Shown here in pieces: positions 8,501-29,353 of a stretch of DNA of 35,463 bases (positions are counted from its first letter, which is position 1; each line of letters opens with the position of its first letter). Source of the DNA: Promethearchaeota archaeon (GTDB taxonomy: Archaea; Asgardarchaeota; Lokiarchaeia; Sigynarchaeales; SOKP01); the NCBI GenBank assembly GCA_030605085.1, contig JAUWBH010000044.1:1-35463 (forward strand). Direction: 5' to 3'. Under the pieces are notes generated by a model, which was not told the origin of the DNA, did not search any database, and was given only the letters and a program-made list of their open reading frames with translations. The translations under genes and the position numbers were made by a program.

Positions 8501-10258
8501 TTATTCCTCCTTTTGAATGTAATCTAAATTATCCAGGATTGCTCTTAACTTTAGAGCTTCAGATCCCCCAGATATTTGAATATTCACAACCGAATCGTCA
8601 TCTGTTCCTGCTACATTAATCTCCATCAAAAGATCTTCTGTGCGTATCTGTTTAGTCTGTCTTCGACTGAAAGCCTCCTTTAAGGGTAGATCAAGATTTG
8701 AAAATTCCGATGCGATATCAGCCCATATTTCTTTCCAATAAGCATATCTGAAAACATAATCGGTAACAGTCTGTTTATAAAGCTCAATATTACACCAGTT
8801 TATTAAATCCGACCTATTAGGAATGTCAATGCTTCCCATTAGTTTATTTCTTATTTCTGCAAGTTCGTCAATTTTTCCTTTGTTAGACGCATCTTTGATT
8901 TTTTGAGCTAGGGCAGAATATTCCTTATCGTTAATAGCTTCTACAAACGGGAGTAAATCGTATTTAACAATTAAATCGTTTTTCTGGAATTTCTTTATTT
9001 CAGTCAAATCTGTTTTTTCAGGATTACCCATTCTAAATCTTTCGGCAATTTGGTAACAAATCTCGCGATTTTTGAATCTTTTTTGAATAATGTTTAAAAG
9101 GTTTTTTGAGAATTCGTATTTACTCCCCCAATAAGGTGATTTTTCTAATTCTCTTTTCACATAAGCAACTCTATGTGAAATTACATAAGGTGCAATTGTA
9201 TTAACGACATTAACATCAATCTTCTCAAGATCCAATAGCCAAGCTAACGCTTTAGAATATCTCAAGAGGTCTTTAGCAACTCGAACGCTTAAAATTGAAT
9301 CCATTTTATTACAAACATTCTGAGCTGTGTTAAAATGACACCCAGTACATAATCCGGTACTTGGTCTAAGATCCTCGGTATTACCTTTATCAATTCTAGT
9401 ACATAAAGTAAATTCCCTAATAATCGCATGAATGTAGTTATTTACATCGCTATCGTATTGAATTTTATTTACATAATACCAAATTTCCATTAACTCATCT
9501 ATAGTTAAAATTTTGGGCACTTGAATCAGCTCGTCGTAACCACTGTACTTTTCGTCCTTACCAACTAATATCAGTTGTAAATCCTGACTTGCCGGCATAG
9601 AAATTGGAATAGAAATACCAAATCGGTCCAAAAAGGGATTGGATAATTCAAATGTCCCTATATCTTGAGGATTTATGGTCGCATACAGAGAATACTTGCT
9701 AATTGTTTTTATTGAGTCGTAGTATTTTACTGTACCCTCCGCGAGAAGCGATAATAATATATCTTGAGCGTAAGGCGTTAATCTATTAACTTCGTCAATA
9801 ATCTTCCAAAAATTCGTAACAAATTGCCTCCAGACGACTTCTTCTTTCCCTTCGTGCATTAACTTTCCTAATTTAAGCGTTCCGACCAATTTCTCTTCCA
9901 TAAGTTGTGGTTAGCCGTTAACAGCTAAGAGCAATTAACTATGACCCCTTACGATGGAATTTTCAATCTCGCTAAGTGAATTGGCAGTGAACATACGACC
10001 TAATAGTTTCACGAGGGTTGTCTTACCACCGCCATGACCACCGACTAAAAGCATTGCCGAATTGGGAACTAAAGCGTTTAGAACGCATAATGTTATTATT
10101 TCTGGTAATTGTTTTTTTTCAACCTTTTTACTTATTTCATCGAGGTATTTAATCTCTAAATTTTTTGAATGAACAAACAACTGATTGGCCTGAATTAGGT
10201 TGATTATCTTCCATATTTTTTTTCTTAAATTGCTTTCTTCATCTATTTTTTTTGACAT
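8501..10258 (-). CDS. MoxR-type AAA+ ATPase, interrupted by a 30-nt intron
   Basis: Exon 1 is 10258-9941 (106 codons); exon 2 is 9910-8501 (469 codons plus stop). Joined, they encode 575 residues. Walker A is GGHGGGKT at 73-80, Walker B is IIDEVNR with D145-E146, sensor 1 is YATINPQD (N186), and the arginine finger is FLDRFG (R202). The junction reads SIVRGH+PQLMEEKLVGTL, as expected for MoxR-like proteins. Without splicing, translation stops two codons after GH and the Walker A and B halves would be separate. The rest of the frame is clean over 469 codons and its VWA partner is intact, arguing against a dead gene. Unusual: C276, C294, C297 and C306 form a possible Zn or Fe-S site in the C-terminal half. 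Confidence 0.82.
9911..9940 (-). other. 30-nt BHB-type intron in the AAA+ ATPase gene
   Basis: The segment has two in-frame UAA codons (its second and tenth). The RNA folds as a bulge-helix-bulge. Central helix: GGUC at the exon-1 end with GGCU near the intron end (4 bp, two G-U). Bulge 1 is AUA, bulge 2 is AAC. The intron hairpin is GUUAA/UUAAC (5 bp). The outer exon-exon helix is almost absent (one G-C). Cutting after the second base of each 3-nt bulge excises exactly these 30 nt and joins CAU to CCA, the junction the protein needs. The junction has no sliding ambiguity. Confidence 0.8.
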
Positions 10259-22014: not shown

Positions 22015-22205
22015 TTATTTCTCAGCTAATTGAAAATTTATCTGCACTCTAACGCGATAGATCAAAATATCCTTATCTTCTTTAACTTTAATATCTTTCT
22101 CAATAATTTGAATGGTTCTAATTCCTCTAATAGTTTCTTTTGCTACTTTATTAGATTTATAACCTTGTCCAACCATCGCTTAGAGATCACCAGTTCAATT
22201 TACAT
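22015..22205 (-). pseudogene. Second dodecin copy, decayed
   Basis: The 3' two thirds read VAKETIRGIRTIQIIEKDIK, then VKEDKDILIYRVRVQINFQLAEK and TAA, a clear dodecin C-terminal half. Upstream, in another frame, lies IELVISKRWLDKVINLI, the matching dodecin N-terminal half, with a 1-nt frameshift before KVAKE. The ATG at 22205 is followed at once by TAA, and two residues of the GTS loop are missing. Too little DNA is present for an intron to explain the defects (59 nt where 81 coding nt are expected), so this copy is a true pseudogene. It starts directly after the stop of the intron-containing copy and has no intron at the site of that gene's third intron. Confidence 0.65.
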
Positions 22206-22503
22206 CTATCTCTCAATTTGAAAATTAATTTGAACTCTAACACGGTAAATCAATTTATCGACATCCTCTTAAGTCGAGTCTCAGAATTTGATGATCTCTT
22301 TAACCTTAACATCAGATTCGATAATTTGGATATTTCTAATACCGCGTAGGGTTTTTTTAGCTTCGTTATAACAATTTATGACTGCATCAGCCCAGTTTTT
22401 TTCAGAGGTTCTGGATCTACCAGACATGACTGGAAGACTTTCCAACTAGTTGAATACTTTTATATATTAAAAGCGTAATGCATTTAATTTTATACACGGT
22501 CAT
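22206..22503 (-). CDS. Dodecin flavoprotein gene with three short introns
   Basis: Exons are 22503-22490, 22459-22440, 22408-22300 and 22269-22206: 207 nt, or 68 codons plus TAG. The joined protein begins MTVYKSIQLVGTSEKNWADA, continues through KKTLRGIRNIQIIESDVKVKE and ends DVDKLIYRVRVQINFQIER. This is a complete dodecin (strand, helix, two strands), comparable to the Thermus protein with VYKKVELVGTSEE. Dodecins form hollow 12-mers that store flavin. Unspliced, the sequence has one frameshift and several stops. Every one of the three breaks coincides with a foldable BHB segment of 30 or 31 nt. The start ATG follows a purine-rich GAAGTG stretch. The neighbouring decayed copy confirms the family. 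Confidence 0.8.
22270..22299 (-). other. BHB-type intron 3 of the dodecin gene (30 nt)
   Basis: It contains UGA and UAA in frame. By sequence alone the junction can slide over 5 nt (AAGAG repeated). Only one position gives a BHB: central helix GGUU/GACU (4 bp, two G-U), bulges AAA and UAA, intron helix GAG/CUC (3 bp, the weakest of the set). Cutting after the second bulge base joins GUUAA to AGAG and yields KVKEDVD. The exon-exon outer helix is missing. Confidence 0.65.
22409..22439 (-). other. BHB-type intron 2 of the dodecin gene (31 nt)
   Basis: This insert shifts the frame as well as adding a UAG. Fold: central helix UUGG/CCAG (4 bp, one G-U), bulges AAA and AAC, intron helix GUCU/AGAU (4 bp) continuing after a U-U mismatch with CCAG/CUGG (4 bp), loop UCAUGU, and a 2-bp exon-exon helix AG/CU. 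Cutting after the second base of each bulge removes 31 nt and restores the frame exactly: GTT GGA A joined to CC TCT GAA, giving VGTSE. Confidence 0.75.
22460..22489 (-). other. BHB-type intron 1 of the dodecin gene (30 nt)
   Basis: This insert has no stop and adds ten residues (IKCITLLIYK) after VYK if retained. It is flanked by the direct repeat TATAAAA, so the junction could slide by 7 nt. One position gives a full BHB: central helix GUAU/AUAU (4 bp, one G-U), bulges AAA and AAA, intron helix AUUAAA/UUUAAU (6 bp) with an 11-nt loop. Removal gives MTVYKSIQLVG, the normal dodecin length. Confidence 0.65.
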
Positions 22504-25004: not shown

Positions 25005-25712
25005 ATGAGTGAAAACTTAGTCGAATTAGGGAAAAAAACAGCAGCAGAAAAAGCAGTAGAAGAAAATGTTAAAAGCAACATGATTCTAGGAATAGGAAGC
25101 GGATCTACTGTAGTTTACGCTGTAAAAAAAATAGCTGAATTGAATAGAGAAAAAGATCTGAATCTAAAGTGTATCCCAACTTCTTTTCAGTCATATCAAT
25201 TAATCATAGAAAACGGGCTTAATCTAGTTTCTTTGGATCAATACCCCGAAATTGATTTAGATATTGATGGGGCTGATGAAATTGACGCTAATTTGAACCT
25301 GATAAAAGGTGGAGGAGGTTGTTTGCTTCAAGAGAAAATTATTGCCTCGAATTCCGAAAAACTCGTAATAGTGGTGGATTTTAGAAAGAATTCGGAAAAA
25401 TTAGGCCAAAATTGGAAAAAAGGCGTTCCAATTGAGGTGATTCCAATTGCTTATGTTCCCATTATGAAGAAAATGGAAAAATTAGGGGGAAAACCCTCAC
25501 TTAGAATGGCCCAATCAAAAGCTGGGCCATTAATCACTGACAATGGTAATTTTATTATCGATGTTGATTTTGGAATAATTGACAATCCTTCAGAGCTTAA
25601 TCAAAAAATATTATTAATACCTGGAGTTGTAGAAACGGGTTTATTTTTAAATATGACATCAAAAGCGTATATTGGTCAAAAAGATGGAAATGTTTTAATT
25701 CTTCATAAATAG
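25005..25712 (+). CDS. rpiA: Ribose-5-phosphate isomerase A
   Basis: The 235-residue protein interconverts ribose-5-phosphate and ribulose-5-phosphate. RpiA motifs: GIGSGSTV (phosphate loop), PTSFQS, DLDIDGADEIDANLNLIKGGGG (the catalytic Asp/Glu region) and DFRKNSEKLG. ITDNGNFIIDVDFG and PGVVETGLF are the typical C-terminal signatures. Preceded at 17 nt by purE and by a GGGAG ribosome site, so probably co-transcribed, supplying ribose phosphate to purine synthesis. A partial, recently derived copy of its 3' end lies at 26519-26703. Confidence 0.95.
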   Translation: MSENLVELGKKTAAEKAVEENVKSNMILGIGSGSTVVYAVKKIAELNREKDLNLKCIPTSFQSYQLIIENGLNLVSLDQYPEIDLDIDGADEIDANLNLIKGGGGCLLQEKIIASNSEKLVIVVDFRKNSEKLGQNWKKGVPIEVIPIAYVPIMKKMEKLGGKPSLRMAQSKAGPLITDNGNFIIDVDFGIIDNPSELNQKILLIPGVVETGLFLNMTSKAYIGQKDGNVLILHK

Positions 25713-26451: not shown

Positions 26452-26518
26452 TTTAGACACCAAATTTCTTCTTTACAAGTTTTTTTGGTTTATTTTTTAT
26501 GCTATTAACAGTGATGGT

Positions 26519-26703
26519 GCAATTATTAAGCACGGACAATGGTAACTTTATTATAGATGTTGATTTTGGAATAATTGACAATCCTTCAGAGCTTAATCAA
26601 AAAATGTTATTAATCTTTGGAGTTTTAGAATACTGGATTTTTATAAGAATGCCTTCTAAAGAGTATTGGTCAAAAAGACGGGAATATTTTAATTCTTCAA
26701 AAA
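26519..26703 (+). pseudogene. rpiA 3'-end remnant
   Basis: Positions 26535-26610 are nearly identical in DNA to the rpiA segment coding DNGNFIIDVDFGIIDNPSEL, with only a few silent or near-silent changes, so the copy is recent. Similarity then decays (PGVVETGLF has become FGVLEYWIF), a 2-nt deletion breaks the frame near GQKDG, and the match ends with the last rpiA codons. It lies about 0.8 kb downstream of rpiA in the same direction, beyond an unrelated gene. The 5' two thirds of rpiA are missing. Confidence 0.85.
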
Positions 26704-26788
26704 TAAATCCAACATTTTTAATTGGGAAAAAAGAAAATTTTTTTAGAAATCTTTAACTATACCTATTATTATGAATGATCTTCAATAA

Positions 26789-26886
26789 GGGGACGTGGAT
26801 TAGACCGGAAGATCGTTCGCTTGGCATGCGAAAGTGGGTTCAATTCCCACCGTTTTAGGCCGCGGGTTCAATTCCCGCCGTCTCCA
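26789..26886 (+). tRNA. tRNA-Ala(GGC) with a 24-nt intron-like insert
   Basis: Acceptor stem GGGGACG/CGTCTCC (26789-26795 and 26879-26885, one G-T), discriminator A at 26886, D arm GATT/GATC, anticodon stem TTCGC/GCGAA, loop TTGGCAT (anticodon GGC, alanine), and T arm GCGGG-TTCAATT-CCCGC (26862-26878). CCA is not encoded. Between the anticodon stem and T arm lie 29 nt instead of the usual five. Removing 26833-26856 leaves AGGCC and a fully standard tRNA. A second T-arm-like hairpin lies inside the insert. A TATA-like TTTAACTATA is about 30 nt upstream. Confidence 0.88.
26833..26856 (+). other. 24-nt BHB-like insert (probable intron) in tRNA-Ala
   Basis: The insert folds as GUGGG-UUCAAUU-CCCAC, a hairpin identical in form to a T arm. 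Around it a BHB-like structure can be drawn: bulge 1 AAA, central helix UGCG/CGUU (three pairs plus one U-U mismatch), bulge 2 UUA, and an exon-exon helix GGC/GCC. Cutting after the second base of each bulge removes 24 nt. The position (43/44) is non-canonical, as seen for extra tRNA introns in some Thermoproteota. A tandem duplication of the T arm plus acceptor end is the alternative origin. Confidence 0.6.
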
Positions 26887-27091
26887 TTCTTATTGATATT
26901 TTAGTTTTATTAATTTTTTGAAAATTGAAATGTAAAGAGATAGAGTGCGTTTTAGAAAATTATAAAAAATAGAAAGAAAATATTTATTTCATTTTCTCAT
27001 TCTTCATTTTGAAAGGTTAGAAATTTTTTTTTACTTTCAATCTATATTTAATATAACCACTTCAATTTTGAATGGAATTTTTATATCTCAT

Positions 27092-29353
27092 ATGTTTGGC
27101 ACTAAGATTCCACGGAAAGACCTTATTCCAATAATTTTAGTAATGCTTCTTCTGTTTGTATCTATAGCTTGTGCTAACATGTTAATTCCCAGTTATGCAG
27201 CAATTGAAAAAGAATTTAATATTCCCGAAGCGCTAATTGCTATACCGGATGCGCTTTTCATTTTAGTTAGCGCTTGTTTCGCTCTCATTTGGGGCTACTG
27301 GGTGGATCGTATTAATAGGGGAAGGGTCATTCTCTTTGGAGCTTGCTGTTGGACCGTTGGAATGTTATTAACCGCTTTTAGCACATCCTATCAAATGCTT
27401 ATATTCTCTAGAATGTTAAGCGGAGCTGGTTTAGGATGCGTTTTACCTGTGGGATATTCAATTATTTCTGATGCAATTCCTCCTGAGGAGAGGTCGGGAT
27501 GGTTTGGAACATTAGCAATTCTAAGTTCGGTGTCAAATGGAATTGGTCAGGCATTATCGTCTTTTTTAGGACCTGTAGCAGGTTGAAGGTTTCCATTCCT
27601 TCTTTTATCGATAATAAGCGTAGTAATTCTAATTTTCCTTTTTTTTACAAAAAGATACATTCCACAACGTGGCGCAAGCGAAGACGAATTATTAGATTTA
27701 GCTCAATTAAGTTTAGAATATAGCTACAGAATTTCTACGTCTGAATTAGGAGAAATATTAAAAAAAAAAACAAACCGGTATTTAATGATTCAAGGGTTTT
27801 TCGCAATCATTCCAGGAACAATCTTAGTATACTTCTTAACTTCCATGTTTGCTCTCTACTACTTTGCAGACTTGCCTGAAGAAATTAGACTTCAAGTATC
27901 CTCTATATTTGCAGGAATGGCGGGCATAGGATACATCTTAGGAAACCTCGTTCTATCACGATTGGGGGATTATTTGTTTAAAAAAAACAAAAAGAATCGA
28001 ACTCGATTAGCAACATTTTGTTTGATTATCACAATTCCATTATTTCTTATAACACTTTTCCTCGTCGAACCTGTCAGTGTAAACAAATTAGATATTGATT
28101 ATCCAGATCCTATTCCCACTGGAGAGATGTGGCATTACATTATTTTAACTATTGGTGAAATTTTCAGGGTTTATCCTTCTTACATTTTTTATTTTATATT
28201 CGCTATAATCGGTACGATGACGGGTGCGGGTCCTGTCGCAAATAGAAACGCCACTATGATAGATGTTAACATGCCAGAACATAAAGGGACGGCAGCATCA
28301 TTTTTTAATCTCTCAGAACAGATCGGTAAAGGAGTTACATTGTTAATTTCGTTTATGTTAATAACATGGCTAGGAAGCATATACAATATGATGCTATTCT
28401 CCATAATCTTTTGGATTCCAGCAGCGATATTATGGTATTTTGTAACCAGAAATGTAGAAGAAGATATGTATTACAAATCGAGAATCTTAACTGAAAGAAA
28501 ACAAGTCACATTAATCGATTATATATTCGAATTAGAGATTCAAATGGACAGAGCGATTCAAAAAGTCCAAGATTCAAAATATTACATTGAAACAAATAAG
28601 GAAAAGTTCAATCAGTTGTTAAATGATTCGTTAAAAATAATAATATTCTGCGAAAGAGAGGGAGTATCAAGAAGTATAACAAATATCGAATCTAAAGCAC
28701 ATGTTTTAAAACTCAAAGTAATATTAACTAAACAAGAAGCAAATAGTATATACAAAAAATTAGAAGATAAAAATTTATCTGTTAAAGAAATTGACAATTT
28801 AAATGAGGGATTAAGAAAAATTAAGTTAAAGATTAGCGAATGGGAGCAAAGTACATTCGGTGAAATTCAAACTTATTACGAAGACGCTTATTTAAAAATA
28901 GTAGAAGCGAGATTATTGCGTCATATCAATTTGGTTAGGTGCGTAGGAAAAATAAAGGAAGCAATTAACATTTATCATCGAACAAAACACCTACTTAGTG
29001 AAAGAATTGAAATCACTAAGGATAAAGAGGACCTAACGGAAGAAGACTCAATTATGTTTGAGAAAGAACAAGATATATATGAAAAGTGCAGAAAATCTCT
29101 GTTAGCGACAGTTAAATTACGGGACGATATTGAATCCGTATTTCAACAGCTCGAAGATGCAGGAATCAGTAAAGGTGATCTCTTAAAAATTGTGGAACTT
29201 ACATTCGAATACGAAGTAGATCTTTACAATATTATAGTTGATACATTAGGAGTTGATAATAAAACTAAAGATGCTATTATGAAGATTTTAAAGAAAATTG
29301 ATATTTCTTTTAACGAGTATGATCAATGGATAGTCGATTTTCAAGTGTTCTAA
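27092..29353 (+). pseudogene. MFS transporter with cytoplasmic coiled-coil tail, interrupted by one UGA
   Basis: The frame runs from ATG at 27092 (or TTG at 27068) to TAA at 29353 with a single internal stop, TGA at 27584-27586. The sequence around it is GPVAG-stop-RFPFLL; MFS proteins have Trp here (G-W-R-x-P-F), so TGA stands for TGG. Residues 1-460 form 12 membrane helices with the motif GYWVDRINRGR after helix 2; residues from about 475 to 753 are a long, charged, coiled-coil-rich cytoplasmic tail. No other lesion is present over more than 580 downstream codons, so the mutation is recent, tolerated, read through, or a sequencing error. Substrate unknown. Confidence 0.8.

Follow-up and report, generated by a model that had tools for sequence, protein, structure and literature searches.

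Few introns that are excised from archaeal mRNA by the tRNA-splicing pathway have been described. According to excerpts of a 2020 paper, the intron of the cbf5 mRNA is the only further archaeal mRNA bulge-helix-bulge (BHB) besides a case in a Haloferax 5' UTR (PMC7714728), and an excerpt of another paper lists introns of other archaeal protein genes as predicted, yet unconfirmed (PMC2738675). The cbf5 intron, found in Desulfurococcales and Sulfolobales, is short, its BHB is often unconventional, it is cut after the second of three bulge bases and it is absent from some lineages through loss (PMC2738675, PMC7714728, both in excerpt). The putative introns that we describe here in Lokiarchaeia resemble it in all these respects; unlike cbf5, which is one gene of Crenarchaeota, they occur in three gene families, measure 30-34 nt and reach three per gene in a dodecin of only 68 codons, a gene that holds six intron sites altogether. 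The BHB of HVO_1309 of Haloferax likewise makes an mRNA the substrate of an archaeal splicing endonuclease, as the processing predicted for Lokiarchaeia would, whereas it lies in a 5' UTR leader where its removal restores no protein, and the Lokiarchaeia inserts interrupt coding sequence (PMC7714728, in excerpt). In Asgard archaea, 92-95% of the tRNA genes of three genomes contain introns, which are BHB-type, can be several per gene and sit at non-canonical positions (PMC11291895, in excerpt). The Lokiarchaeia introns share these properties, but they reside in protein genes of Lokiarchaeia and not in tRNA genes of Atabeyarchaeia and Freyarchaeia. Archaeal group I introns are the topic of PMC6125680, and excerpts of PMC12397907, PMC12872463 and PMC12872458 offer references alone on this point. 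Among the titles and abstract openings listed by our searches of the open-licence literature, preprints aside, none describes BHB introns in the mRNA of an Asgard archaeon.

The window, by which we mean the whole 35,463-nt stretch of DNA that was analysed, carries on its minus strand a dodecin gene (22206..22503) interrupted by three putative introns. Exon 1 (22490..22503, 14 nt) begins with MTVYK, the conserved start of Asgard dodecins, and is followed by intron 1 (22460..22489, 30 nt, after coding nucleotide 14), exon 2 (22440..22459, 20 nt), intron 2 (22409..22439, 31 nt, after coding nucleotide 34), exon 3 (22300..22408, 109 nt), intron 3 (22270..22299, 30 nt, after coding nucleotide 143) and exon 4 (22206..22269, 64 nt including the TAG stop). 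Intron 1 preserves the reading frame and lacks stops, intron 2 shifts the frame and intron 3 brings in an in-frame stop. The four exons joined encode 68 residues and a stop (MTVYKSIQLVGTSEKNWADAVINCYNEAKKTLRGIRNIQIIESDVKVKEDVDKLIYRVRVQINFQIER), with MTVYKSIQLVGTSEK as an example of a peptide that spans a junction. This product matches Pfam Dodecin (PF07311) with 58.6 bits, against a cut-off of 22.5, over profile positions 1-64 of 64. At E <= 0.001 it has 366 matches in a large protein set; two intronless Asgard dodecins lead them, with 94% identity across 68/68 residues, and the organisms named among the matches listed are Asgard groups or a subsurface metagenome. Alignment with the intronless dodecins of related genomes, the check proposed along with the original prediction, comprises 34 relatives and is free of gaps at all three junctions. 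That prediction was exact in the coordinates of the split gene and of its three segments, whose removal does yield a 68-residue dodecin, as the full-length Pfam match and the identity of up to 94% attest, and it was right that the 31-nt segment corrects the frame, since intron 2 is the one that shifts it. The gene order of the window is kept in Lokiarchaeota assemblies, and in one of them (L014) thiolase, dodecin, TPR protein and dUTPase are consecutive likewise. On gene order and similarity, the window probably belongs to Lokiarchaeia. Immediately downstream of the split gene, at 22015-22205 on the minus strand, lies a tandem second dodecin copy without introns. Small deletions, a frameshift and a stop at codon 2 disrupt the N-terminal half of this copy, but the C-terminal half is intact, with 29/37 residues identical to the first copy; the copy is probably a decayed duplicate.

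In the canonical topology of the BHB the final bases of the 5' exon are paired with the 3'-terminal part of the intron, and each three-base bulge is cut behind its second base. At the cuts given above, all three dodecin introns show 4/4 central pairs in this topology, with inner helices of 6, 4 and 3 bp for introns 1, 2 and 3. Opposite chirality, in which the 5' end of the intron would pair with the 3' exon, gave no match at these cuts, where the canonical form gave 4/4. Thus the cuts after the second bulge base do coincide with the frame-restoring junctions, as had been claimed. When the allowed slides are counted, the chance of four central pairs together with an inner helix of at least 3 bp is 0.038, 0.020 and 0.019 for introns 1, 2 and 3, and the joint chance is about 1.4e-5. 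The outer helix between the exons comprises 1, 2 and 0 bp, so that the strict BHB form with its outer helix is not found; given that this helix is weak or absent, we regard the three as relaxed BHBs. The fold energies are ordinary when compared with shuffled sequences (z -0.17, -1.20 and -0.72), intron 2 alone retains its central helix in the free minimum-energy fold, and forcing the BHB costs 3.3 kcal/mol in intron 1 and 1.2 kcal/mol in intron 3. Given the ordinary z values and a minimum-energy fold that preserves the central helix of intron 2 only, the structural case is one of pairing at the right position, not of stability. The earlier statement that each segment folds independently as a BHB is thus sound with respect to pairing potential, which amounts to 4/4 pairs in each, but not with respect to the energy minimum.

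A question arises with intron 1, which is in frame and stop-free and therefore, if left in, adds merely 10 residues: are only introns 2 and 3 spliced, while translation of insert 1 lengthens the protein by 10 residues close to its N-terminus? Such a reading would agree with the lack of an in-frame stop, with a free fold that favours another structure by 3.3 kcal/mol, with the intron-aware aligner, which omits this intron under a stricter intron penalty, and with the mirror topology, which also passes at some slide in intron 1, the sole such case among 12 dodecin introns. Yet an insertion at this place occurs in 0/34 aligned relatives, the cut is flanked by 4 central and 6 inner pairs, and in another Lokiarchaeia dodecin (L046) the intron at the same nucleotide contains stops and has the same central pairs. 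The case for splicing of intron 1 comes from the relatives, from its BHB and from the stop-bearing intron of L046, and we consider translation of insert 1 improbable.

The dodecin introns recur across Lokiarchaeia. A contig scan with the dodecin alignment returned 41 Lokiarchaeota loci, and a class-wide search of 83 genomes returned 64 with a match, 52 of which, by hand count, have a close Lokiarchaeia-type dodecin; as 8 of the 20 further places fetched duplicated earlier loci, the sample is 53 distinct genes, or 54 with the window's own. Introns were called by intron-aware alignment and refined by slides that preserve the product. We find 12 introns at six sites in 9/54 genes, or 8/53 intron-bearing genes once the window, whose introns were the reason for its choice, is set aside; one dodecin cut by a contig end (L042) was scored as intronless. 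The sites lie after coding nucleotides 14 (window, L046), 34 (window, L036), 47 (L032, L039), 65 (L040, L041), 143 (window, L038, L039) and 156 (L037). In L041 and L050-L054 the aligner also placed 'introns' of 18-89 nt among the first codons; these are artefacts of a forced start codon and were dropped. All three sites of the window are thus reused in other Lokiarchaeia, with a different inner sequence and with central pairs at equal positions. Under a strict rule of four central pairs and an inner helix of at least 3 bp, 9/12 dodecin introns qualify compared with 0.25 expected (P 6e-14), the expectation being derived from an equal number of slides tried at random places of intronless dodecins, whereas the mirror topology qualifies in 1/12, namely in intron 1 of the window. 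In a midpoint-rooted FastTree of the neighbour genes (43 loci, support values not inspected, L032 and L046 omitted for too little sequence), introns are scattered, and the window groups with the intronless L014 and L033, away from L036, L038 and L039. This scatter points to repeated gain or loss, and the introns were probably gained and lost repeatedly. A phylum-wide dodecin search (227 genomes, 158 matching) revealed, beyond the known Lokiarchaeia cases, none with internal stops among the matches listed.

Introns of the same kind interrupt two further genes. In the window itself, a MoxR-like ATPase gene on the minus strand consists of exon 1 (9941..10258, 106 codons, with the P-loop GGHGGGKTT) and exon 2 (8501..9910), separated by a 30-nt candidate BHB intron (9911..9940) whose removal restores RGHPQL. 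It has 4/4 central pairs, a 6-bp inner helix and a 1-bp outer helix, and its cut is unique in restoring this protein around RGHPQL. The homologues that cover at least 545 residues at a minimum of 64% identity (46 by hand count) are stop-free in 43/46 cases and have a stop inside in 3/46. These three genes (in G052, G009 and G051) contain exact 30-nt inserts, two of them at one shared site and one within the Walker A motif, and all have 4/4 central pairs at the restoring cut. An EF-2 paralogue frequently displays, among the matches listed, an internal stop together with about 30 extra nucleotides; 13 of the 16 stop-bearing places that were fetched hold 30-nt inserts, giving 14 introns at four sites, and four uninterrupted places used as controls contain 0 inserts. 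Four more matches to this paralogue with an internal stop (G071, G013, G042 and a second one of G032) stand outside the count. In two of three diverged EF-2 genes that were fetched (L104 of G012 and L105 of G081) the match is interrupted near reference residue 105, with a gap of some 25 nt that may mark additional introns beyond the main group, and the third (L110 of G031) has one internal stop. The surprise expressed in the original prediction at such a density of introns in a tiny gene was justified: putative introns recur in the dodecin genes of Lokiarchaeia, and the ATPase gene of the same window is split as well.

Taken together, the collection amounts to 30 introns, 12 in dodecin, 4 in the ATPase (the window and three other genomes) and 14 in the EF-2 paralogue, of which 23 are 30 nt long, four 31, two 32 and one 34. 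Four central pairs at the restoring cut are present in 29/30 in the canonical and in 0/30 in the mirror topology, while random positions give 2.5% and 2.7%; the exception is the first intron of L039, with 3/4. For the 18 introns of the ATPase and the EF-2 paralogue, where the protein limits the cut to 1-4 positions and the cuts were checked against all slides that yield the same protein, the count is 18/18 compared with 0.56 expected; the nominal P of 5e-30 overstates the case because related copies are included, nine of the 18 being copies at one site, hence not 18 independent events. At this nine-intron site, which comprises eight distinct sequences, 94.6% of cells pair versus at most 50% when the partners are slid by 1-3 columns, and the covariation score is matched by 3/500 shuffles. 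The pairs changed on both sides number 2, as many as in 161/500 shuffles, and further pair types are matched by 391/500. Covariation at this site modestly supports the helix. The free minimum-energy fold includes all four central pairs in 18/30 introns (1/4 in the window), and a forced BHB costs between 0 and 7.3 kcal/mol across the 30. Other classes of intron were considered and rejected: GT, expected at the 5' end of a spliceosomal intron, is found there in 0/30, and inserts of just 30-34 nt compare with some hundreds of nucleotides for the ribozyme core of a group I or group II self-splicing intron.

Translational bypassing, in which the ribosome would skip every insert and the RNA would stay uncut, is known from phage T4 gene 60 and from the byp elements of some yeast mitochondria. 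The inserts described here resemble such elements in being short, near-constant in length and hairpin-containing, and 6/30, including dodecin introns 1 and 2 of the window, end on the triplet that also stands just before the cut. In 24/30, however, including intron 3 and the ATPase intron of the window, matching triplets are absent when compared at the cut and not in codon register, and bypassing gives no reason to expect the 5' exon to pair with the 3' end of the insert in a 4-bp helix flanked by 3-nt bulges at the junctions, as seen in 29/30 in this topology and in 0/30 in the mirror. We therefore hold bypassing to be very unlikely. Are the split genes, instead, decaying pseudogenes or assembly errors in which the pairing is coincidental? 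The sources are metagenome assemblies, and directly downstream of the split dodecin there is a degraded copy, both of which would be in keeping with this. Nevertheless separate assemblies carry inserts at the identical nucleotide, and as each dodecin site of the window is occupied in another Lokiarchaeia genome, an assembly error becomes very unlikely; furthermore, the coding sequence around the inserts is conserved, all 30 lengths fall within 30-34 nt and removal restores full proteins in three families. Decay or misassembly with chance pairing is in our view extremely unlikely. Programmed deletion, by which the segments would be removed from the DNA of some cells and not from the RNA, is compatible with the genome sequence taken alone, yet nothing in the data calls for removal of DNA and the structures are of the type that the tRNA-splicing endonuclease EndA takes as its RNA substrate; we attach next to no probability to it. 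None of these four alternatives, translation of insert 1 among them, accounts both for the pairing at the junctions in three gene families and for the shared sites.

How widespread are such introns? Of the 83 genomes, 65 matched the VWA gene with an internal stop in no case, 82 matched the thermosome, stop-free among the matches listed, and 77 matched rpoB, with a single stop-bearing match from a genome in which rpoB is spread over two contigs. Given that rpoB, the thermosome and the VWA gene show no such inserts among the matches listed, the introns are gene-specific. DUF2070 matched in 52/83 genomes, with some eleven matches that contain one stop and a signature of 30 additional nucleotides obvious in none, as judged from the search results alone. 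A homology scan of the dodecin neighbourhoods, with 389 ORFs of at least 150 aa as queries and cases required to have at least two supporting queries, found no split match of intron type and no stop-bearing insert on the sense frame; it did list some in-frame differences in length. A blind scan of 447 kb that combined open reading frames with the BHB rule gave 19 canonical versus 17 mirror clusters, which is no excess, and the ATPase intron was absent from its output; it required 30 open codons on each side, which makes the dodecin introns invisible to it. The introns are concentrated in particular Lokiarchaeia genes, and this implies no genome-wide density.

Other features of the window were recorded as well. 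An Rfam scan of the window returned nothing at gathering thresholds except one tRNA. This tRNA gene (26789-26886, plus strand, 52.3 bits) is Ala-like by its anticodon GGC, ARAGORN reports none, about 25 extra nucleotides that hold a second T-arm-like hairpin precede its T-arm, and the BHB rule identifies no candidate intron in it. An ORF at 26499-26756 (plus strand) is a partial duplicate of the ribose-5-phosphate isomerase gene (25005-25712), whose C-terminal part it repeats, with STDNGNFIIDVDFGIIDNPSELNQK in common. A transporter gene (27068-29353, plus strand) has a single in-frame TGA at 27584-27586, in a probable Trp position (GPVAG*RFPF). As no other stop interrupts the frame up to 29353, this is not an intron.

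The enzymes that would act on these introns are encoded in the relatives. In a search of 10 Lokiarchaeia relatives, of which eight have introns in dodecin, the PF01974 endonuclease family (EndA) is found in 10/10, with at least two matches in 7/10, and RtcB is found in 10/10. According to an excerpt, a heteromeric splicing endonuclease has been linked to unconventional BHBs (PMC2738675), and two EndA-family genes would fit a heteromeric enzyme, which may form in Lokiarchaeia. We consider it highly likely, on the sequences, that the dodecin segments of 30, 31 and 30 nt are BHB introns cut from the mRNA by EndA, after which RtcB would rejoin the exons, and that they are part of a recurrent set of 30-34-nt introns. 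In the predicted mechanism the pre-mRNA would fold locally into a relaxed BHB, in which the final bases of the exon and the 3' end of the intron form a 4-bp central helix, bulged by 3 nt on either strand, and the intron's own hairpin would serve as the inner helix. The tRNA-splicing endonuclease EndA would then cut both bulges after the second base of each, giving exactly the junctions that the intronless relatives demand, and the ligase RtcB would rejoin the exons. Excision and ligation, like any benefit that they may bring to the cell, are what we infer from the sequences, the junctions, the pairing, the recurrence of sites and the enzyme genes of the relatives.

It is conceivable, by analogy and with considerable doubt, that this splicing is regulated, so that the dodecin, MoxR-like ATPase and EF-2 paralogue mRNAs would be spliced through the tRNA-splicing pathway at recurrent sites, with EndA and RtcB gating their output in the manner of XBP1/HAC1. 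The XBP1 intron is 26 nt long, and the XBP1/HAC1 mRNA is cut by IRE1 and not by EndA at a BHB. The eukaryotic system is similar in that a very short mRNA intron is removed and the exons are rejoined by a tRNA ligase, which in animals is RtcB (PMC10653391, in excerpt), an analogy of working and not of membership. The concentration of the introns in few genes makes regulation by splicing directly testable.

If the splicing is true, short introns in archaeal protein genes would be much commoner than the few published examples suggest, and gene prediction in Lokiarchaeia would truncate or miss proteins. EndA and RtcB would have a role on mRNA in archaea close to eukaryotes, and the gain and loss of mRNA introns that need no spliceosome would be traceable over dozens of genomes. 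Were the splicing regulated as well, a lineage of the archaea closest to eukaryotes would possess multi-intron protein genes without a spliceosome.
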